Of a stretch of DNA of 32,035 nucleotides, positions 8,133 through 27,024 are shown one piece after another; the stretch's first letter is position 1, and each line of letters starts with the position of its first letter. The stretch is from Bacillota bacterium. Its GTDB lineage: Bacteria > Bacillota > Bacilli > Alicyclobacillales > SLC66. Both the position numbers and the translations under genes were made by a program. The notes under the pieces were generated by a model. That model saw nothing but the letters and a program-made list of their open reading frames with translations. It had not been told where the DNA came from and did no database searches. The DNA is taken from positions 1 through 32,035 of the forward strand of contig JAJZCB010000041.1 of NCBI GenBank assembly GCA_021846285.1. Direction: 5' to 3'.

Positions 8133-9209
8133 TTAACCGCGAGTATCGGCCAGCGCGAGCAGAGCACCGGTCAACCTTCGTTTTGCTTCCCTCTCGATCA
8201 GGGATTCGTCAAATTTCATCGGTTTGGCATTGGTCTCAAACAGACACGGCTCTCCACTCGGCAAGAGCCCCATATCGACAGACAGTTCCGTCCATGTTCC
8301 CGGACTGCGGGCGATCGCATTCGCTGCAAGGACCGCTGTTCCCAGCGCCTGCTCCGCGACCGCGTCGGCGGATTTCCCGAAAACTTCCTCAAGCACGTGA
8401 TGAGCATCGGCAATTTGACCGCCATTTGGCACATGAGTGGTTATGCCCGCCGGAGGAGCGAGTCGTACACCCATGCCTGTAAGGGTAAATGAATCGGGCA
8501 CAGTGCGGTGCAGGAGCAGGCGAAGATCAAAACGGCGATTGCGATACAGAGCCGTATCCGCTTCTTCTTGCAACAGGTAGCGCGCGCAGACGTTCCTGCG
8601 TCGCAGATAGTCCTTGAGTTCCGGCCAGGACAGCCGATCGAAACGCACTACATGCCCCTTTCTCTGTTCCCTCACGGTATAGAAAAAGCCGCCTCGCTCC
8701 ACCCGCAAAATCCCGACTCCCGCCTTGCCGTCGATGGGCTTGACATAGAAGCGTGGATATCGCACGGAAAATGCCCTGACCTGATCGACAGTGCGCAATT
8801 CTTCCGTGTTCAACAACCAGGGGCGAAGCGCTTCCTGCGCACTCCAGCGCTTATGAATCTCGAGTTTAGACAAAAATCCGGGATTCGTGATCACAACGCC
8901 CGCGCGCCCCCACTCGCGAAACAGACGCCGTACATGCGCCTGACGCTCAAGAGTTCGCAGCGGGATGCGATTGTAGAGAACGCCTGGTACATCAGACAGA
9001 CGTACAGCCCGAAACGCACGTCTTCCGTCCGCTTCATGGTAACTAACCGTGCCGCCCGGCTCAATATTGACAACCACACAACCTGCGCCGCGTTCGTGGG
9101 CAGCTCTGGCGATGCGCTGGAAGTTCGCCTGATTGCCGCCAATGCGGTCACGATGGACACTCGTGGTCAAAATCCCGATAGGCCAATCCGTGGCAACATG
9201 CTTTGTCAC
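8133..9209 (-). CDS. YheC/YheD-family ATP-grasp ligase (fifth gene of operon)
   Basis: This 358-residue protein belongs to the spore-associated YheC/YheD group of ATP-grasp enzymes, whose members are expected to join a carboxylate to an amine or similar group using ATP; no substrate is known to me. A Rossmann-like N-terminal part ends with the family motif VLYNRIP (about 77-83). The ATP-grasp part has the nucleotide lysine in FYVKPIDGKAGVGI (K157), the central FDLRLLLHRT strand (about 227-236), and the metal-binding residues in ELSVDMG (D312) and ETNAKP (E325, N327). All key residues are present, so it should be active. Its ATG overlaps the preceding gene's stop by four bases, showing translational coupling. 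It is the last gene of the operon. Confidence 0.9.
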   Translation of the reverse strand: MTKHVATDWPIGILTTSVHRDRIGGNQANFQRIARAAHERGAGCVVVNIEPGGTVSYHEADGRRAFRAVRLSDVPGVLYNRIPLRTLERQAHVRRLFREWGRAGVVITNPGFLSKLEIHKRWSAQEALRPWLLNTEELRTVDQVRAFSVRYPRFYVKPIDGKAGVGILRVERGGFFYTVREQRKGHVVRFDRLSWPELKDYLRRRNVCARYLLQEEADTALYRNRRFDLRLLLHRTVPDSFTLTGMGVRLAPPAGITTHVPNGGQIADAHHVLEEVFGKSADAVAEQALGTAVLAANAIARSPGTWTELSVDMGLLPSGEPCLFETNAKPMKFDESLIEREAKRRLTGALLALADTRG

Positions 9210-10303
9210 CGGGCAACACCTGCCATGGAGTAGTGATCAACCAGAACCTGCGCATACTCAATAACCCTTAGTCTGGACAGCAGACCCGCCCGGCGCAGAG
9301 TCTGATGCGCAAATATGGCGCGCCCTGGTTTCGCGTTCGCTTCAAACAACACCACGCGTCCGTCAGTCGATATCCCCATATCGAGACCGAGTTCACCCAG
9401 GTTTTTATCGAGACGCCGGACCAGCACGCGACAGACGGTGATTGCCGCCGCTTCCAGTTCGTCTCGGACGGCAGGGGCGGTGCGACCGTACCAGTTGGTC
9501 AATACCCGCTCAGCTTCCTCCACTCTCCCGCCGCTGTGGACATGAGTCGTGATGCCGTCACGGCTGCCGACCTTGGCCCCGATCGCCACAACCTCCCAGT
9601 CGTCATTGGTTGTACGATGGAGATGCACGCGAAAGTCGGTCTTACACCCCTCGTGGACCGCGAGTGAGATTTCCTCCTGAACAATGGACTGCGCTCCACC
9701 AAGATGTGACTTGCAAGCCAAAACGCAATCCCTGGCCCGCGAGTAAAAATAACTGCGCACATCAGCCCCCTGGCGCGTATCCAGCCGATATCTGGCGCCA
9801 TCTCTGGACGCTCGGCAGATACCCTCCCCAAAGCTCCCTGCAATCGGTTTGACAAACAGGGCTCCATACTCTTCCAGCCATTGTTCCACCTTCTGCTGAT
9901 TCCACTCGGTCATCGTCATCGGTAAAAATGCCTGCGTTTCGCGTTCATCGCGTAGTACTTTGTCCACCTCGCGTTTATTGAAAAAACGTTCATTGAAATA
10001 GGGAACGCCCCGATCGCGCAGTTGTTGTTTGACCGCCGCCGTCACAGGCAGCATTTCTTCGCGGCGCGTGGGAATGCGATTGTACACAACCGTTGGCATC
10101 GGCTGCATCCGGTATTCAAAGTTGGTCGCCAGTCCATATCCGACGACCGCGTTACCGTCGGGGTTGCGTAGTGCCTGGCTAGTCACGCTGTAGGCGACCA
10201 CACCTCTTTCTTCGGCTGTTCGCAATAATGAGCGGACATAGGGGGAGCGTTCATTTTGTTCGCCGACCAAAATTCCGATGACGCAATCGGTGTCTCGTTT
10301 CAT
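9206..10303 (-). CDS. YheC/YheD-family ATP-grasp ligase (fourth gene of operon)
   Basis: This 365-residue YheC/YheD-type ATP-grasp protein has the family motif VVYNRIPTRREE (about 72-83), the ATP-binding lysine and glycine loop in LFVKPIAGSFGEGI (K152), FRVHLHRT in the middle (about 224-231), a substrate-side THVHSGGR segment, and the metal ligands D308 (GELGLDMG) and E321/N323 (FEANAKPG). All catalytic positions are intact. It starts one base after the stop of the ligase-fusion gene, with AAGGAGG inside that gene's end acting as ribosome site, and its end overlaps the next gene by four bases. It resembles its neighbour at 8133-9209 most closely, suggesting an old tandem duplication. Confidence 0.9.
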   Translation of the reverse strand: MKRDTDCVIGILVGEQNERSPYVRSLLRTAEERGVVAYSVTSQALRNPDGNAVVGYGLATNFEYRMQPMPTVVYNRIPTRREEMLPVTAAVKQQLRDRGVPYFNERFFNKREVDKVLRDERETQAFLPMTMTEWNQQKVEQWLEEYGALFVKPIAGSFGEGICRASRDGARYRLDTRQGADVRSYFYSRARDCVLACKSHLGGAQSIVQEEISLAVHEGCKTDFRVHLHRTTNDDWEVVAIGAKVGSRDGITTHVHSGGRVEEAERVLTNWYGRTAPAVRDELEAAAITVCRVLVRRLDKNLGELGLDMGISTDGRVVLFEANAKPGRAIFAHQTLRRAGLLSRLRVIEYAQVLVDHYSMAGVAR

Positions 10304-10304
10304 G

Positions 10305-11798
10305 TCACCGCCTCCTTATCGCCTGTTCGAAGTAAACCGCCTGACCGCCGCGCCCCTTTGCAGAAGATGTACGCATACTGGCCACCGGAATTTGCCATGC
10401 GGCTCGAAGATCGACCGTTTCATCCCATACCTCGTCGCTCCGGATCATAGAGAATAGCAGATCAATCGCCGATTTGTAATCTTCGTAGGTGCGGGTGGCC
10501 TTAACGTGAGCATACACTTCCTCTGACATAGGCAGTAAATAGTCACGATCACTCTTGTAGAAGGCACGCACGCGATCTGAACTGTGCAAGGGCAAATATG
10601 GCAAATTCTCATGATGCTGCGCCACGATGTACGCCAGTGCCAAAGCGCCCAGTGCGATCGTGGGGTCGAGCACAAAACTGGCTGGCGTTCTATACTCAAA
10701 TCCTCCGTACGACTTGTGCCGGACATCTCCCAGAAATCCATACTTGGGACGCCTGCGCGCCGCTGTCAACGGATCTTCGATCAACATCAGAGGCAAACCC
10801 ACATACACGTCAAGCAGACTCACAATTCTCCCGGTAAACGGAACACCGCTAAAATGGATGTGCCCTCCGATAGGAAAGCGTTCAAACGGAGCGCTTCCTG
10901 CTACCCACTTGGGATTCATTCGTTTCGCCAACTGACCGGCTTCCCGCAAAGTCACTTTAATGTTGGCGCACAGTTGCTCCGGGGTGAGCGCTGGTTTCGG
11001 CCGCAGTTCCGCAAGCGGCCGCCGCGAACGATCGCCTCCAAACGTCCGATCGTCGCAACCGACACTTCCCAATGTGGGAAAATAGCGGGACGCCAGCACC
11101 AGGTTCCCCTGTTTTGACCTCAGCATGAACTCCAGATCTGTGCCCAGCATTATGGCTCTCTTGTCGCCTTTTTTGATGCGCTCTTCCATCTCCAGGTAGG
11201 TATTCGCCGCCTCCGCGTACAATTGCAGGACTCGACCCTTGAGTACGGGAGTTGCAGCGACGTCCAGCACCATCAGTCGCTGATGGACGGTGACACCGAT
11301 GCTCACCAGGCCAAATTCCAGACCTAAGGCATGGATAGAGCGAACGGCCAGAAGACACACTTTGCGGGTTTCATCATCGTACTCCATCGGCACTTCCGAA
11401 AAGGTATCCAGCACCTGGTTGATGCGCTTTGACAGCCACACCGTCTTGGCGTCCGTTCTAAAACACGTCAGCGCCTTGAGGTTGAACACGGGAATTCGAT
11501 AGTGCCGAACAAGCTGCGTGCGCAGTTCAGTCTCATCGTCCTGGCTGCGACTGCGGGGGCAGTTTACACCCGCCCTGCGCAGAGACTTCAGCATAGCTCG
11601 ACGGGATTCCGCCAGGAGCAGAGACTCCCGTCTGTTGATGACCCAGTGTCCGCGATCGGGATCATCGGTGTTGCCGTAGCGGATGACTATATCGTCTGCC
11701 GTAACCATGCGCAGTTCCTGCGCGGGCACAAGGCCGGGCACTTGTCTGGCCAGCCGCTCCGCAGAGGTCTGGCCACTATGCAGCAGATAAAACGTCAC
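10305..11798 (-). CDS. Putative amidoligase: phiEco32-type COOH-NH2 ligase fused to an ATP-grasp-like N-terminal half
   Basis: The 497-residue protein has two parts. Residues about 215-480 match the COOH-NH2 ligase type 2 family (glutamine-synthetase-like fold, first noted in phage phiEco32): LGTDLEFML (218-226), ELRPKP (264-269), GGHIHFSG (311-318), GLPLMLIED (334-342), GFLGDVRHKSYGGFEYRTPAS (354-374). Family members are predicted to form amide bonds using ATP. Residues 1-210 resemble the C-terminal ATP-grasp subdomain of the neighbouring YheC proteins, but the acidic and Asn metal ligands appear replaced (FGLVSIGVT, VLDVAATPV), so this half is probably non-catalytic. The start is GTG at 11798 with GGGAGG eleven bases ahead; 18 bases separate it from the preceding gene. 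No phage genes are nearby. Confidence 0.85.
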   Translation of the reverse strand: MTFYLLHSGQTSAERLARQVPGLVPAQELRMVTADDIVIRYGNTDDPDRGHWVINRRESLLLAESRRAMLKSLRRAGVNCPRSRSQDDETELRTQLVRHYRIPVFNLKALTCFRTDAKTVWLSKRINQVLDTFSEVPMEYDDETRKVCLLAVRSIHALGLEFGLVSIGVTVHQRLMVLDVAATPVLKGRVLQLYAEAANTYLEMEERIKKGDKRAIMLGTDLEFMLRSKQGNLVLASRYFPTLGSVGCDDRTFGGDRSRRPLAELRPKPALTPEQLCANIKVTLREAGQLAKRMNPKWVAGSAPFERFPIGGHIHFSGVPFTGRIVSLLDVYVGLPLMLIEDPLTAARRRPKYGFLGDVRHKSYGGFEYRTPASFVLDPTIALGALALAYIVAQHHENLPYLPLHSSDRVRAFYKSDRDYLLPMSEEVYAHVKATRTYEDYKSAIDLLFSMIRSDEVWDETVDLRAAWQIPVASMRTSSAKGRGGQAVYFEQAIRRR

Positions 11799-11816
11799 AA
11801 CGTATTGCGCCTCCCT

Positions 11817-12974
11817 TCACGCCTGTCTGGTGCCCGCAAGTCTAAGCGCAAAGCGAATCGGTCGCAAAAAGGACAGGTCGACAAGCTCCGGAGATCCATG
11901 CAACGTTGCAGGCGTCTTCCATGGCTTGGAGTTGACTTCGAGAATGTAAATACGGCCAGTTTCAGCAATTCCGAGATCAATGCCGAGTTCGCCGAGCAGT
12001 CGCTGTGAGCCATCTTCAACTACGGATGGGATCAAAGCAGCAAGGGCGTAAATCTGTCTGCGCACCCGCGTTGCCCGAAGTGGGGGGTCGACCTCTGAGA
12101 GAGCTGACAGCGAACACGCTTCTCCACCGGCTGTCAGGTTGGAGATGAACTCACCCTGCGCCGCTACCCTCATGTAGACCTTCGTACGTTTCCATGCACC
12201 AGTTCGATCTTTTTGCATGAGAACTCGAACGTCAAATGGCCGTTGCCCCCATTGCACGAGCGGAACGCCCTCCTGCACGATATGCGGAGTGCTCATGACG
12301 CGGGCCCGATATCGCCGGTAAATCTCCCTCATGCTGTCAGCGCGAAATTCTTCAGCAAGCCCCTGTTTGGTGCGAAGCGTCGCACCAAACCCGCCCTGGT
12401 CACGACTGATCTTGAGAATTCCCACACCCAGACTGCCATGAATCGGTTTCACGAACACAGTGTGATGGGATTTTGCAAATTCGTTCAGGACCTGGGGTCC
12501 GGTAACAAGAGCGGTACGCGGGAGAAACGTCCGCAGACGCGGATCCGATTGCAGCCAGGATGTAACCTCCCACTTGTCAAAGTACCCCCCATTGAACACA
12601 AAAGTTGCTTGTTGCAAGTACTCTCGCATCTTCAGACATGTCTCGCTGCGTTCGTAGCGACGCGAGACGATCTGATCGTAAATGACTGGGGGAATCCCAA
12701 GATCAGCCTTTTCCACCCTGGGCTGTCCTTGATCCCCACCATCGACAAGGATGAACCCGCGAAGGCGATGGCAAGCGACATCAACGGCCGCGGGATCAAA
12801 GACGCAGGCCAGGACGCCTTCCCCCTTTGCCGTCTCCAGATAACGCTGCAACACCGGGCCCTGCTTGCCCTGAAACACGCCATTGACGACTCGCGGCCTT
12901 GCCATGACGCCCATTTTCGGCAATCGCAACTGTCGGACTTCGGAGCATTGTAACAGCGAGGAATGCACAGTCAT
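11817..12974 (-). CDS. YheC/YheD-family ATP-grasp ligase (second gene of operon)
   Basis: This 385-residue member has a short N-terminal part ending in VIYDQIVSRRYE (about 97-108, the equivalent of the VxYNRIP motif), then the ATP-grasp core: VFVKPIHGSLGVGI (K176), FDVRVLMQKD (247-256), ELGIDLGI (D333) and ILEVNSKPW (E346, N348). Catalytic positions look complete. Its ATG overlaps the stop of the first operon gene by four bases (ATGA). The family is known from Bacillus as spore-coat-associated proteins of unknown reaction. The position two genes after cotE supports a role in the spore envelope; the substrate remains unknown. Confidence 0.9.
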   Translation of the reverse strand: MTVHSSLLQCSEVRQLRLPKMGVMARPRVVNGVFQGKQGPVLQRYLETAKGEGVLACVFDPAAVDVACHRLRGFILVDGGDQGQPRVEKADLGIPPVIYDQIVSRRYERSETCLKMREYLQQATFVFNGGYFDKWEVTSWLQSDPRLRTFLPRTALVTGPQVLNEFAKSHHTVFVKPIHGSLGVGILKISRDQGGFGATLRTKQGLAEEFRADSMREIYRRYRARVMSTPHIVQEGVPLVQWGQRPFDVRVLMQKDRTGAWKRTKVYMRVAAQGEFISNLTAGGEACSLSALSEVDPPLRATRVRRQIYALAALIPSVVEDGSQRLLGELGIDLGIAETGRIYILEVNSKPWKTPATLHGSPELVDLSFLRPIRFALRLAGTRQA

Positions 12975-14437
12975 GCTCCGCCTTCCCCTTTCGCGATCAG
13001 GTGAAAACCCGTGCTAAACACAGCATATTCAAGGACCCTTTGCAGTGACAAACGCCTTGCCTCGGGATCGATCAGGCGAAACATCTGACGACCCGGACAG
13101 GGATTGACCTCCAGAATATAGGCCCGTCCGAATCGATCCAGGGCTACGTCAACACCAAGTTCCGTCAGGGATGGATGATCAGCGGCCACTGCAGAAAATG
13201 CGGCCAGCGCAGCCGTTCGACCTGTACGCACACCATGCCGGAATTGGGAAATCTGCTCTCTATGCAAATACTGCTCGACAGCCGTCAACGAGAGCGCCTT
13301 GGCGCCGGTGTGAAGATTCGTGGTGACAGCGTCAGGGCGGCCGACTCTCGCGACGCTGCCCGTACAGTCAGCCTGTCCACCAGGGCGCGCCTGCACCAAA
13401 AAACGCAAATCAATCGGAGCGCCCGTCACGGTGCGCATCAATTCCACAGTTCCTTGTGCAATCCATGCAAATTCCGATGTCGCCGCGGTGAATCGGCGCA
13501 GCAGCGCTTCATCGTCCTTGAGAATCTCGCCGCCGCGATTCCGTTGCGCCTCTTTTAACAACAGATACCCTGGATGGAGAGCCACGATCCGCGTGATCTT
13601 CTGGCCCTGAGTGCCGCGCGCCGGTTTGAGGTAAACGTCGCCAAGCACCTTGACGGCCTGCAGTAGGTCTTCGGCAGAACGAATCGGGTACATCGGCGGC
13701 AAAAAGGGCTGAACACCTGGCGCCGAGGACAACACGTTATGCAAGAGCCATTTTTCACTCTTTTGTCTGGGTAGTGTACCAAGCACCGATGTTGCAAGCA
13801 GCAATTCTTCGTCGCGGCTCATCATCTTCCGCACCCGGGCAGGCCGCAAAACAGTTCTGCGCCACACAAAATCCGGCCACGGACAGTCTTCGAGAACCCA
13901 TTTTGAGCGGCTTGGGTAGTAACGATAGGCGCGTGTTTCTTGACTTCTGGCGCGCAGACGCCCCGGCGCCAACACGAAAAAATCGACGTGTGCTTCGCGC
14001 GCCAAAATCGCCATATCTGCAAACAGCCGCGTCTGCGGTCCGAACAGACTCGTGGCGCCCGGCATGGCATAGACTGCGATTGCCGGCCCCAACCGTATCG
14101 TATCGCCATCGAGAAAGGCGCGAACTGGGTAGTTTGGCAAATGGAGTCGAGAACACGTCGACGCACTGAGTTCGATAGACGGCGGTTCCGCTCTGATCAT
14201 TTGCCACAACCGCGCCCTGATGACATCCATTCCATGGGGGTAAGACGGTCCTCCGGCCCCTTGTGGAGCGCTCGACACCGTATCGGCGCGCAACGGCGCC
14301 GTTCGCAACCCGTACTGCACAACGCGAGGAGTGTCTCCTTCTCCATACAGTCCACTGGTTCTAACCATGAGAGTGTCCAGTTGGATCCGAAGACCACCAC
14401 GGCGGGCATTCCGAACGCGGCGCAAAACCCGATTCAT
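12971..14437 (-). CDS. YheD-like ATP-grasp ligase, long form (first gene of operon)
   Basis: This 488-residue protein is the long YheD-like form. The first about 110 residues resemble the beta-rich N-terminal domain of YheD (a segment RIQLDTLMVRTSGLYG and the polar stretch after it), then LGPAIAVYAMPGATSLFG and VDFFVLAPG of the pre-ATP-grasp domain. The ATP-grasp core has VYLKPARGTQGQKI (K271; the last glycine of the loop is changed), IDLRFLVQARPG (342-353), ELGVDVAL (D430) and ILEVNPCPG (E443, N445). I chose the ATG at 14437 because AAGGTGG lies just before it; a frame-extended ATG at 14485 has only a badly spaced ribosome site. It follows the cotE terminator, so the operon probably has its own promoter, which I could not identify. 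Confidence 0.88.
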   Translation of the reverse strand: MNRVLRRVRNARRGGLRIQLDTLMVRTSGLYGEGDTPRVVQYGLRTAPLRADTVSSAPQGAGGPSYPHGMDVIRARLWQMIRAEPPSIELSASTCSRLHLPNYPVRAFLDGDTIRLGPAIAVYAMPGATSLFGPQTRLFADMAILAREAHVDFFVLAPGRLRARSQETRAYRYYPSRSKWVLEDCPWPDFVWRRTVLRPARVRKMMSRDEELLLATSVLGTLPRQKSEKWLLHNVLSSAPGVQPFLPPMYPIRSAEDLLQAVKVLGDVYLKPARGTQGQKITRIVALHPGYLLLKEAQRNRGGEILKDDEALLRRFTAATSEFAWIAQGTVELMRTVTGAPIDLRFLVQARPGGQADCTGSVARVGRPDAVTTNLHTGAKALSLTAVEQYLHREQISQFRHGVRTGRTAALAAFSAVAADHPSLTELGVDVALDRFGRAYILEVNPCPGRQMFRLIDPEARRLSLQRVLEYAVFSTGFHLIAKGEGGA

Positions 14438-14571: not shown

Positions 14572-14595
14572 AAAAAAAGGGGCGCTAAGCGCCCC
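14572..14595 (-). terminator. Strong intrinsic terminator of cotE
   Basis: On the minus strand the perfect stem GGGGCGC/GCGCCCC (14595-14579, loop TTA) is followed directly by seven T. It lies 33 bases after the cotE stop codon and separates cotE from the ligase operon. Confidence 0.92.
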
Positions 14596-14628: not shown

Positions 14629-15153
14629 TCACAGTTGCGAGTCCTCGTCGACGGAACTGTCGTCTTCCTCGAAACTCTCTTTTTTGTCCCTCGGTTCGCA
14701 CGTCATTACCCATACTTTCGTGCGACCAACCACTTCGACAGCCAGTTCCGCTTCAACGCGAACCGCAATTTCCGTTCCGCCATCCACAACGGTTGCATCC
14801 AGACAGTTGGGTTGTTGAACAACTTTCACGGTGACATCGAGGTCATCATGGAAGCAATGAGGATCCAGGTCGCTCAGCGCAACGTGCTCGACATAAGACA
14901 TCGTGTCCTTGGCAACGGCCGTCTCACTGTTACCGTTATAGGAGTGCCACACATTGATGTCAAAACGTCCATGAATCTCCACCACATCTCCCACAAGAGA
15001 GCCCTCGCACGAATGGTTCATCACCCAGCAACCGCCAATCGTTGTCGGACGATTGGCCGGACGAATCGTATACGTGCTTTGGGAGTATTTCGTTCCCTTG
15101 CCGCATACGGCACTGGTGATGATCTCGCGGCACCCGGTATCTGTTGCGAGCAT
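14629..15153 (-). CDS. cotE: Outer spore coat morphogenetic protein CotE
   Basis: CotE builds the layer on which the outer coat of the endospore assembles. The 174 residues match Bacillus CotE throughout: CREIITSAVCGKGTKYSQST (8-27) at the start, then WVMNHSCEG, FDINVWHSY, KVVQQPNCLDATV and the AVEVVGRTKVWV segment, ending in an acidic tail (FEEDDSSVDEDS), a hallmark of the family. The start is the ATG at 15153; AGGAGGT lies nine bases upstream. A GTG one codon earlier is also possible, and a longer frame up to 15210 has no homology. It is monocistronic: a strong terminator follows. It neighbours miaB and mutS in Bacillus too; here the ligase operon lies between. Confidence 0.95.
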   Translation of the reverse strand: MLATDTGCREIITSAVCGKGTKYSQSTYTIRPANRPTTIGGCWVMNHSCEGSLVGDVVEIHGRFDINVWHSYNGNSETAVAKDTMSYVEHVALSDLDPHCFHDDLDVTVKVVQQPNCLDATVVDGGTEIAVRVEAELAVEVVGRTKVWVMTCEPRDKKESFEEDDSSVDEDSQL

Positions 15154-15423
15154 CACTCTGCTACCTCCTCGTTTTCGTTTCAGAATCACAGTTGGGCGGG
15201 TGACAGCCATGGCAACAGTCCAGCCGGTTTCTGTACTCCATCTGTATGCCGTTCGCCCACTATTGGTGAGAACGGCCTAACGGCCTTTGCCCACGCCCAC
15301 AGTCTCCATATGGTATGTACGGAACATGCGCGTTGACACGCAAACGAGCGCCCAAAATCGGACGCCCGCATCACGGGTATGGGTCTGATCGCTTGCGCGT
15401 GAGGAACAATCGGCGACAGAGGC
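15154..15423. other. cotE upstream region
   Basis: The 270 bases contain a sporulation-type -10 candidate (15309-15317), a tandem eight-base repeat aacggcct-aacggcct (15271-15286), and the cotE ribosome site. No clear terminator for the upstream dipeptidase gene is visible. Confidence 0.4.
15309..15317 (-). promoter_or_regulatory. Possible sigma-K/sigma-E -10 element for cotE
   Basis: Minus-strand CATACCATA fits the sigma-K -10 pattern CATANNNTA and is close to the sigma-E pattern. A GTCAAC about 14 bases upstream could be the -35 but the spacing is short. In B. subtilis cotE is read by both sigma-E and sigma-K, which motivates the call. Confidence 0.35.
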
Positions 15424-16377
15424 CTACTGCGCCGGCAGAATTTGCGAGAACACTCGCAACCAATTCCCGCCGGCCATCTTGGCCAATACATCAGACCCGT
15501 ATCGGCGTTCCAGTTTCTCCAGCAATTGCGGATAGTCGGATCCATGGCGAAGATCCGTCAGTGTCGTATCGATCCCGTCAAAGTCAGAGCCGAGCGCCAC
15601 GCCGTCAGGGCCGGCGACGGTCAGTAAATGGTCGATATGCCGGAGCAAATCCTCGCTGGTGAGCATGGCTCTATCACCCACAAAACTGGGCACAAACGTG
15701 GCGCCGACGAGTCCACCGGTGGCGGCAATGCCGCGAATCTGATCATCACTCAGATTGCGCCGATGGGCGTGAACCGCCGCGGCGTTGCTGTGCGACGCAA
15801 CGACAGGTCCCCCATAAATCTCAAGCACATCCCAAACTCCGCGCTCGGCTAGATGAGAGACGTCAACAACCATGCCAAGCGTACGCATGGTCAGCACTAC
15901 CTCGCGACCAAAATGGGTAAGACCTGCGCCGCGCGCTTCCCCCACCCCATCCGCTACGCTATTGGCGCCGTTCCATGTCAGTCCGATCAATCGCACGCCA
16001 AGGCGAAACAGGGTATGGAGCACCCCAATCCGCCCTGCCAGCGCATCCGCACCCTCCAATGACAAAATGGCGCCACGATGCCCGCTTTGAAGCACCGCTT
16101 TGAGATCAGAAACCGAGAAGACAGGAGTGACGACCCCTGGTTTTTCCACTTCACGATAAAATCGATCCAGTGAGGCCAGAACCTTGTACAGTTGCTCGCT
16201 TGGAGACAGACTGGGTTCCACAAAAGTGACAAACACCTGCACATCAATGCCACTGGCCTCCATATGTAAGTAACTCTGCTGCAACCTCGAATCCGGGTCG
16301 TAAAATCCCAGTCCTTCCCCCTCCATGCGATACAGAATATCCGCATGCCCGTCCACCACCACATGCCCGTTATACAT
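15424..16377 (-). CDS. Membrane dipeptidase (renal dipeptidase family, peptidase M19)
   Basis: Family members are zinc amidohydrolases that split dipeptides, including ones with a D-residue at the C-terminus. The 317-residue sequence shows the metal-ligand pattern in order: DGHADIL (H and D, about residues 9-15), LSLEGADAL (bridging Glu), VDVSHLAERG (His), VASHSNAAAVHAHRRNLSD (His and the conserved His-Arg segment) and GSDFDG (Asp). No signal peptide is present, so it is probably cytoplasmic. The ATG at 16377 has GGGGGAG about eight bases ahead. It follows ymdB by 35 bases and probably shares its transcript. In spore formers it could recycle cortex or wall peptides; this is inference. Confidence 0.9.
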   Translation of the reverse strand: MYNGHVVVDGHADILYRMEGEGLGFYDPDSRLQQSYLHMEASGIDVQVFVTFVEPSLSPSEQLYKVLASLDRFYREVEKPGVVTPVFSVSDLKAVLQSGHRGAILSLEGADALAGRIGVLHTLFRLGVRLIGLTWNGANSVADGVGEARGAGLTHFGREVVLTMRTLGMVVDVSHLAERGVWDVLEIYGGPVVASHSNAAAVHAHRRNLSDDQIRGIAATGGLVGATFVPSFVGDRAMLTSEDLLRHIDHLLTVAGPDGVALGSDFDGIDTTLTDLRHGSDYPQLLEKLERRYGSDVLAKMAGGNWLRVFSQILPAQ

Positions 16378-25612: not shown

Positions 25613-26935
25613 CTAGACGACCTCCCCAACAAGGTCAAATTCAAACGCATGTGAAATGCGAACCGACACGATCGACCCGAGTCTCAAGCCGATTCCCGTT
25701 ACGTATACGACGCCGTCGATCTCCCGCGCATCGTACGGAGTGCGGCCGATGTATCCCGACTCTCCCGCCTCATCCACACTCTCAATCAGCACGGGTACAG
25801 TCTCGCCCACAAAACGGGCCATACGCTTACCGGCAACTTCCCGGGCCGCCTCCATCAGTTCGCTCGCGCGCCGTTCCTTTGTCTGCTCATCCACATGCAG
25901 CGGAAACGCTGCGGATGACGCCGTATCTTCCCGCGAATACGTGAACACCCCAACATGGTCGAATTCCAGATCCCTGACAAATGCTTTGAGATTCTGGAAC
26001 TCCTCTTCCGTTTCGCCCGGAAAGCCAACGATGAACGAAGTGCGAATGACGACACCCGGAATCCGCGCTCGCATTTTCGCCAGGAGGACGCGAATCTGCT
26101 TTTGCCGACCCGGCCGTTGCATCGCCCGCAAAATGCGATCTTCAGAGTGCTGGAGCGGCAGGTCGATATATTTGACCATCTTGTCCAGATCCCGGAAGGC
26201 GTCGATCAATTCGTCGCTGAAGTAACCGGGATACGAGTAGTGCAGGCGGATCCACTGCAGATCCGGAACATCGTTGAGCGCCCGCAACAAATCCGGGAGA
26301 CGTCTTCGGCCGTACAGGTCCAGCCCGTACTGCGTCGAATCCTGCGCGATCAGGTTAACCTCCCTGACACCGGCGGAAACCAGGTTGCGAGCTTCCTGAA
26401 CCACGCTCTCGATGGTCCGGGAGCGAAATCCACCCCGCATTTGCGGGATCACGCAAAAGGTGCACTTGTGATCGCAGCCCTCCGCAATCTTGATATAGGC
26501 AGAGGGCGCATCGGGCGCCTTGCGGGGGGTCAATTCGTCGTAGATGTAGACCGGATTGCCGATCCACTTCGGGCGCTCTCCCCGTCCTGCCCTTTCGATG
26601 AGTTCAGTGATCCGCGCAAATTCACCCGTTCCTACAATTCCGTCAATTTCGGGAATCTCCGCCAGCAATTGATCTGCATAGCGTTGGGACATGCAGCCGG
26701 CCACCAACAAGGTTTTGCCGCCTGTCTTTCTGCTTGCGGCGCCGAGAATCGCATCAACTGATTCCTGCTTCGCTGCGTCAATGAAAGCGCACGTATTTAC
26801 AATGACGACATCCGCGTCGTCGGGATCGTCTGTTAAGGTATAGCCCTTTTGTTCGATCAATCCGACCATAACTTCAGAGTCAACCGCGTTTTTTTCGCAT
26901 CCGAGTGTGATGATCGATACTCGTCGAGCCGTCAT
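25613..26935 (-). CDS. rimO: Ribosomal protein S12 methylthiotransferase RimO
   Basis: RimO is a radical-SAM enzyme that methylthiolates an aspartate of ribosomal protein S12. It is the paralogue of MiaB encoded elsewhere in this window, and the start sequence VSIITLGCEKNAVDSEVM is RimO-type. The N-terminal cysteines are in LGCEKN, VNTCAFIDAAKQES and LVAGCMSQRYA; the SAM cluster motif is CDHKCTFCVIPQMRGGFRSR; the C-terminal TRAM domain ends the 440 residues. I chose the ATG at 26935 (GTGGAGG nine bases ahead); the frame up to 27010 has no homology. It is the first gene of the rimO-pgsA-cinA-helicase run and has a perfect promoter. Confidence 0.94.
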   Translation of the reverse strand: MTARRVSIITLGCEKNAVDSEVMVGLIEQKGYTLTDDPDDADVVIVNTCAFIDAAKQESVDAILGAASRKTGGKTLLVAGCMSQRYADQLLAEIPEIDGIVGTGEFARITELIERAGRGERPKWIGNPVYIYDELTPRKAPDAPSAYIKIAEGCDHKCTFCVIPQMRGGFRSRTIESVVQEARNLVSAGVREVNLIAQDSTQYGLDLYGRRRLPDLLRALNDVPDLQWIRLHYSYPGYFSDELIDAFRDLDKMVKYIDLPLQHSEDRILRAMQRPGRQKQIRVLLAKMRARIPGVVIRTSFIVGFPGETEEEFQNLKAFVRDLEFDHVGVFTYSREDTASSAAFPLHVDEQTKERRASELMEAAREVAGKRMARFVGETVPVLIESVDEAGESGYIGRTPYDAREIDGVVYVTGIGLRLGSIVSVRISHAFEFDLVGEVV

Positions 26936-27024
26936 TGCGCCTGTCCTCCACATCACGTCAAGGCAAAAAAATTGCAGCGGAAGAGTCCCGCTACCAAACC
27001 ATGCGCCCATTTCACTCTGTTAGA

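Follow-up and report, generated by a model that had tools for sequence, protein, structure and literature searches.

What do amide ligases act on when their genes stand directly behind that of a spore coat morphogenetic protein? The question is raised by a stretch of 32,035 nucleotides (nt) from a Bacillota bacterium (contig JAJZCB010000041.1 of assembly GCA_021846285.1, contig 158 in a 3.9 Mb genome of 164 contigs). In this stretch, hereafter the window, five ligase genes follow cotE: four encode YheC/YheD-type (YheC/D) ATP-grasp proteins and one a fusion ending in a phiEco32-type COOH-NH2 ligase. To our knowledge, neither YheC/YheD nor the phiEco32-type ligases have a known substrate. We propose, at a little less than an even chance, that a mother-cell amide-ligase operon modifies the spore coat, most likely at the acidic C-terminal tail of CotE.

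The bare CotE/YheC-D/ligase neighbourhood has probably already been predicted in print. Iyer et al. in 2009 reportedly predicted a neighbourhood of CotE, YheC/D and a type 2 COOH-NH2 ligase and proposed a spore-coat role for it, and the Pfam notes of PF14395 and PF14398 presumably point to the same neighbourhood. A literature search, whose coverage did not extend to Iyer et al. 2009, found no report on this ligase operon. Added here are counts over order, class and phylum, the tree grouping with YheD, the ATP-grasp remnant, the CotE tail lysine and a conserved hairpin. Order, class and phylum are those of the window (Alicyclobacillales, Bacilli and Bacillota); in the handles used below, G stands for genome (G000 being that of the window), L for locus and f for family.

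Organization of the locus

The features concerned are the following.

14629..15156, minus strand: cotE, outer spore coat morphogenetic protein (PF10628, E 2.1e-57), directly upstream of the ligase genes
14680..14685, minus strand: two lysine codons (KK) in the acidic C-terminal tail of CotE (tail table), putative acceptor site
14572..14595, minus strand: terminator-like hairpin GGGGCGC-TTA-GCGCCCC followed by T7, between cotE and gene 1
12971..14437, minus strand: gene 1 (LigA), YheC/D-type ATP-grasp with a long N-terminal part (PF14398, E 4e-47)
14485, minus strand: alternative open reading frame (ORF) start of LigA
11817..12974, minus strand: gene 2 (LigB), YheC/D-type ATP-grasp (PF14398, E 4.4e-65)
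10305..11798, minus strand: gene 3 (Fus), fusion of an ATP-grasp remnant and a COOH-NH2 ligase (PF14395, E 6.5e-92)
11178..11798, minus strand: N-terminal half of Fus (residues 1-207), RimK/LysX-like fold without the ATP-binding middle
10389..11159, minus strand: C-terminal half of Fus (residues 214-470), GS/GCS-like COOH-NH2 ligase by profile, alignment and fold matches
9206..10303, minus strand: gene 4 (LigC), ATP-grasp, clade of YheD-position genes (PF14398, E 5e-62)
8133..9209, minus strand: gene 5 (LigD), ATP-grasp, clade of the fourth gene in separate yhe arrays (PF14398, E 4.6e-46)

Coordinates and Pfam confirm the original prediction of five same-strand genes directly after cotE, spaced by -4, +18, +1 and -4 nt. 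The PF14398 matches of the four ATP-grasps reach 157.6-219.9 bits (curated cut-off 26.8) and the PF14395 match of Fus 307.8 bits (curated cut-off 25), while no NCBIfam match above cut-off was obtained for the six proteins searched, CotE and the five ligases. The probable start of cotE is the GTG at 15156 with a GAGGAGGT site, read by eye; the longest ORF starts at 15210. Three more YheC/D genes lie at other places in the genome, which holds one COOH-NH2 ligase in all.

Conservation of the link between ligase and CotE

In the order sample (49 genomes at >=90% completeness, 2 families, 21 genera), PF14395, PF14398 and CotE are present in every genome, and the ligase always has one or more ATP-grasps beside it. 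Position comparison places ligase and CotE on one contig within ~9.5 kb in 49/49, the ligase of G044 being cut by contig ends. For 29 of the 49, the window among them, the whole order of genes was read: the loci of f1 contain five genes and those of f2 four, and the third ATP-grasp of L128 is a fragment.

Across 299 genomes of the phylum, the ligase was found in 39, CotE in 39 (35 above cut-off) and both in 23, leaving 16 with CotE and no ligase. In 22 of these 23 (10/11 families), ligase and CotE lie within ~8 kb on one contig; the exception, G332, has a broken ligase 27 kb from CotE. The expectation that the neighbourhood extends beyond this strain is thus borne out and, since its conservation is strong, the objection that it might be peculiar to a single strain falls away. 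CotE also stands by the ligase in 73 of the 80 named loci, a set that leans to close kin because it holds the best 80 of 565 relatives found; nearest to the window among these best 80 are Bacillota metagenome-assembled genomes, then Sulfoacidibacillus thermotolerans, with Ferroacidibacillus lower. Of the seven without CotE, the locus stops close to the ligase in three (L171, L189, L221), and the other four (L220, L222, L223, L237) are of Syntrophomonadaceae type. We regard this as a real and widely kept system of predicted amide ligases, very probably of the spore coat.

Among 200 genomes of the class, the ligase was counted in 117, CotE in 147 and the transglutaminase Tgl in 50 (49 above cut-off), the CotE and ligase lists being separate counts not matched genome by genome. 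Outside the order, 52 class loci were compared, one per genus. The COOH-NH2 ligase stands alone at cotE in 43 of them, and ATP-grasps lie beside cotE in nine (L271, L272 with one only, L274, L277, L284, L286, L302, L304, L314). Hence, the COOH-NH2 ligase looks like the core of the system and the ATP-grasps like add-ons. The ligase-only layout, cotE-ligase-mutS and often miaB before, occurs in Thermoactinomyces, Paenibacillus, Brevibacillus, Ammoniphilus and others; it has no ATP-grasp at the junction, and L236 has one upstream of cotE. Nine of the 10 genomes in which PF14398 was sought, with six ligase-only genomes among the nine, have a tandem array of two to five YheC/D genes at another locus.

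Outside the class, gene order and flanks change and the ligase-CotE link stays. The order CotE-g1-ligase-g2-g3-g4 is seen in L091, L092, L101 and L107, and CotE(s)-grasps-ligase in L081, L093 and L096-L100, with variants in L102 and L105. CotE-family genes adjoin ligases in f19, f25, f44, f57, f59, f76, f99 and f105; a 2012 survey (PMC3533761) describes CotE as not seen in clostridia and lists YheD in the base layer. In five of these loci (L081, L096, L098, L099, L100), two adjacent CotE-like genes stand by the ligases, one acidic-tailed and one almost tailless.

The acidic tail of CotE and its lysine

Tails were counted with one CotE per genome, the longer tail being taken where there were two genes; five rows were added by hand, and G202 and G087 were excluded for want of a usable CotE end. 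A lysine occurs within the first 20 tail residues in 95/101 ligase-positive and 6/33 ligase-free genomes. In the class alone, the figures are 84/85 (76/76 genera) against 4/28 (4/20 genera). Lysine density in ligase-positive class tails is 120/1681 in the first 20 residues and 4/906 beyond residue 20; ligase-free class tails have the reverse pattern, 6/559 and 23/497. Furthermore, KK is found in 37/54 genomes with ATP-grasps in the locus, as in the window, in 1/46 ligase-only and in 0/34 ligase-free genomes, and [DE]W stands at the place of the early lysine in 22/34 ligase-free tails versus 6/100 ligase-positive ones. A stricter motif, [DE]x?K, was tried (35/54 genomes with ATP-grasps at cotE, 45/46 ligase-only, 4/34 ligase-free); since it fits worse, the plain lysine criterion was used. 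Each of the two criteria was defined once the tails had been inspected.

Three genomes deserve comment. G490, at first scored as ligase-free, carries cotE-grasp-grasp-Fus running off its contig; it is ligase-positive in the 101/33 and 85/28 counts and ligase-free in those of KK, [DE]W and [DE]x?K. The tail of G413 looks frame-shifted and is positive only through chance lysines. The one class ligase-positive genome without an early lysine is G004, whose KK tail lies beyond an element splitting cotE. Such an element of 2.9-5.0 kb splits cotE just before the tail in four loci (L377, L378, L379 and L123, in G007, G008, G014 and G004 respectively), where the KK tail is an open stretch adjoining LigA. 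In the first three, Pfam identifies a large serine recombinase gene. In all four, the insertion looks like a skin-type intervening element.

The ATP-grasp proteins

The claim that four YheC/YheD ATP-grasps keep complete catalytic residues holds: besides their PF14398 matches, the K-P, GxxG, Q, D-x-R, E/D and E-x-N columns are invariant in an alignment (A3) that includes all four, and K, GxxG, D, E and N are also invariant in another (A2) that includes genes 2, 4 and 5. Two trees were built, a quick one of 99 rows and a careful one of 66 that left out the other 33 for long branches or because their loci were dropped for size. Gene 4 groups with array position 3, including the Bacillus-like gene at the YheD position, identified by gene order and size and not by accession (98/86 in the careful tree, 95 in the quick tree); the position 3 genes from outside the class join the same clade (99/92, careful tree). 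Gene 5 and array position 4 form one clade (100/95, careful tree), gene 2 with array position 2 forms its own (100/99) next to array position 1 (93/87), and gene 1 is a separate clade alone (100/99). Since array positions fall into separate shared clades, the cotE-linked cluster and the arrays at other loci appear to descend from a single ancestral set.

The model of LigC (pLDDT 93.4) has RimK (Z 24.5), LysX/ArgX (23.9), glutathione synthetase (22.4) and TTLL6 (21.0) as nearest folds, and D-Ala ligase is also near. RimK, LysX/ArgX and TTLL are ATP-grasps acting on acidic protein tails. LigC shares with them a predicted fold (Z ~20-24.5) and an acidic tail encoded next door, that of CotE. However, identity is only ~12-22%, and the window differs by having several copies and a GS-like ligase in one operon.

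The supposed spore association of YheC/YheD gains from the placement of gene 4 in the YheD-position clade. According to PMC7911427 and PMC517825, YheD assembles as a shell on the forespore of B. subtilis, where its production is under sigma-E/SpoIIID. The window differs from the B. subtilis yheC-yheD case: among the ligase-free Bacillus-like genomes checked, G226 lacks such genes, whereas G176 has two, G293 three and G432 four, all at a distance from cotE.

Fus, a ligase with an ATP-grasp remnant

The fusion was predicted to join an ATP-grasp to a COOH-NH2 ligase. The PF14395 ligase domain stands, while the ATP-grasp half is a remnant that looks non-catalytic. In the AF2 model of Fus (pLDDT 91.6, pTM 0.90, built from 33 homologues), residues 1-207 match RimK/LysX/ArgX with Z 15.4-16.1 over 182-195 aligned residues. 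The alignment of 33 proteins reveals no glycine/lysine segment in this half, and the metal-binding E/N pair is not conserved. Therefore, judging from alignment and model, this half is probably non-catalytic, and the model suggests that it is probably a binding domain. The operon would then consist of four ATP-grasps and one GS-like ligase.

The C-terminal half contains the invariant residues D221, E223, E264, R266, H313, H315, R349, R350, R360, E368 and R370, among 27 invariant columns across the 33 aligned Fus-family proteins. Its nearest folds are YbdK-type ligases (Z 17.3), plant GCL (15.5), Dop (15.2) and PafA (15.0), and Fus is a predicted amide-forming ligase. With PafA/Dop and the gamma-glutamyl ligases it shares a GS-like fold at 9-16% identity, from which it differs by its fusion to an ATP-grasp remnant; the likeness to pupylation (PafA/Dop) is one of fold alone. 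GshF was considered and set aside, its GCS domain being followed by an intact ATP-grasp, whereas Fus has the reverse order and lacks the ATP-binding middle.

Second ligase copies lie in very long ORFs of ~870-960 aa in L085, G414, G425, G408, G470 and G345, that of L085 matching both Fus and ATP-grasp.

Hairpin and promoter signals

The hairpin between cotE and gene 1 keeps the same stem in the sibling loci L109 and L110 and, in another genus of the family, in L118 and L160. Because this hairpin and its T-run separate cotE from gene 1, transcription at full level perhaps does not continue from cotE into the ligase genes. Among 95 cotE-to-ligase distances in the cluster loci read, 80 fall at -50 to +169 nt, a rough figure since every ORF was given its earliest start and some genomes occur twice.

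The sigma-E-like CATACANT is present upstream of cotE in 15/35 ligase-only loci versus 0.5 expected from first-order Markov shuffles. A sigma-K-like box is present in 9/72 cluster loci (0.6 expected) and 4/35 ligase-only loci (0.3 expected). One control pattern is at or below expectation and the other gives 7 versus 3.3 (cluster) and 3 versus 2.8 (ligase-only). As the loci are related and partly redundant, these excesses are not probabilities. The region upstream of the window's cotE has only CATACCATA, with no well-spaced -35 seen. For the window's organism, we infer production during sporulation.

Proposed function and alternatives

The original interpretation, a peptide-like tag or polyamide built on a coat or cortex component, to which each enzyme might add one unit, is partly supported. 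Two points favour a target in the coat rather than in the cortex: CotE is the partner that stays constant, and its tail lysine accompanies the ligase. The spore coat is very probably the site of action. CotE's tail is a plausible substrate, to which we give not quite an even chance, and its lysine a tentative acceptor, held with less assurance. In such a scheme, the GS-like COOH-NH2 ligase would activate a carboxylate and couple it to an amine, for which the epsilon-amine of the conserved tail lysine(s) is a plausible candidate. Next, the RimK/TTLL-like ATP-grasps might attach further amino acids, or form cross-links, on acidic side chains or on the new branch, the order of these steps being itself conjectural. 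More speculatively, and in our view less likely than not, CotE would be the substrate of a dedicated ligase system: the COOH-NH2 ligase could start an isopeptide branch on the lysine of its disordered acidic tail, which the YheC/D enzymes would lengthen or cross-link. The spore coat would then bear a tail code like that of TTLL or Pup, and B. subtilis yheC-yheD would be what remains of the system. Mutants of cotE are treated in PMC4178626.

Several observations weigh against CotE's tail as the target. Outside the class, the early lysine is weaker, at 11/16 ligase-positive versus 2/5 ligase-free genomes, and the lysine criterion was set after seeing the tails. On a tree of the CotE core (129 rows), ligase state changes four times and the lysine 12 times. 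Because ligase state changes only four times, the lysine-ligase link rests on few events, and an independent-pairs test of the two finds 2-4 pairs and is not significant. The sigma-E-like CATACANT is present in only 6/72 cluster loci (1.1 expected), and the sigma-K-like boxes of cluster loci are mostly of Tumebacillus type, none coming from the window's family. Moreover, 16 of the 39 ligase-positive genomes of the phylum sample show no detected CotE (10 of f23, four of f53, one weak f102 match, and G199 of f25, a fragmented record with a 5.3 kb contig), so that CotE cannot be the only partner.

These genomes without CotE are also what one would expect if the enzymes acted on another coat or cortex component, the adjacency to cotE coming only from same-time production in the mother cell. 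Such an explanation, which we consider unlikely though serious, would suit the YheD-type arrays that, in nine examined genomes of Paenibacillus- and Bacillus-like type, stand at a distance from cotE and, as given in PMC7911427, a two-hybrid test in which YheD binds no morphogenetic protein. It fits poorly with CotE recurring as neighbour in other classes while the flanks change, and with the tail lysine that goes with the ligase. As for the f23 (Syntrophomonadaceae-type) ligases without detected CotE, in L082, L083, L084, L089, L090 and L095 they adjoin a gene that belongs to one and the same cluster of related genes and is AstE/M99-like by Pfam in its L095 copy; two of the ligases that were aligned, those of L082 and L084, carry Ser/Asn/Arg-rich C-terminal extensions.

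Alternatively, the product of the operon might be a small non-ribosomal peptide or amide, stored in the spore as a pigment, protectant or cross-linker, and no protein would then serve as substrate. Linked peptide ligases often work in turn in such pathways, as described for other ATP-grasps in PMC4431377, and the folds close to LigC include glutathione synthetase and D-Ala ligase. In some families the array is followed by a GNAT-type gene, and loci of the order have an M19 dipeptidase gene ahead of cotE. We nevertheless regard a product of this kind as improbable: the best-scoring folds of LigC are protein-tail ligases, and no amino-acid maker or exporter was found among the recurrent neighbours scanned or named, which are not all of the neighbours.

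It is similarly improbable that the ligases cross-link coat proteins through isopeptide bonds in place of Tgl: G000, an assembly of 164 contigs, has no PF20085 match, and in the 52 one-per-genus loci Tgl matches number 0/9 where ATP-grasps lie at cotE versus 8/43 ligase-only above cut-off, but the 50 Tgl-positive class genomes comprise 36 ligase-positive (of 117) and 14 ligase-free (of 83), hence no one-for-other exchange.

Other genes around the ligases

The M19 membrane-dipeptidase gene lies at 15424-16377 of the window, just upstream of cotE (PF01244, E 3e-90), and recurs in 28/61 compared loci including the window, all within the order; it is a possible peptide-cleaving partner of the ligases. 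A related gene of 145-178 aa stands directly downstream of the ATP-grasp array in L091, L092, L101, L107 and L108, the L107 copy being a GNAT acetyltransferase by Pfam. The window also encodes a second MiaB-like protein (25613-27010; 239 bits to its MiaB).

Significance

With a CotE neighbour, a candidate residue and a gene of the YheD clade, the search for the targets of these ligases narrows to a mass-spectrometry question on one protein. If modification of the CotE tail is true, an ATP-driven covalent modification of a coat tail, apart from transglutaminase cross-links, would exist in many spore-formers outside the Bacillaceae-like families, and these would include Alicyclobacillus and Paenibacillus.

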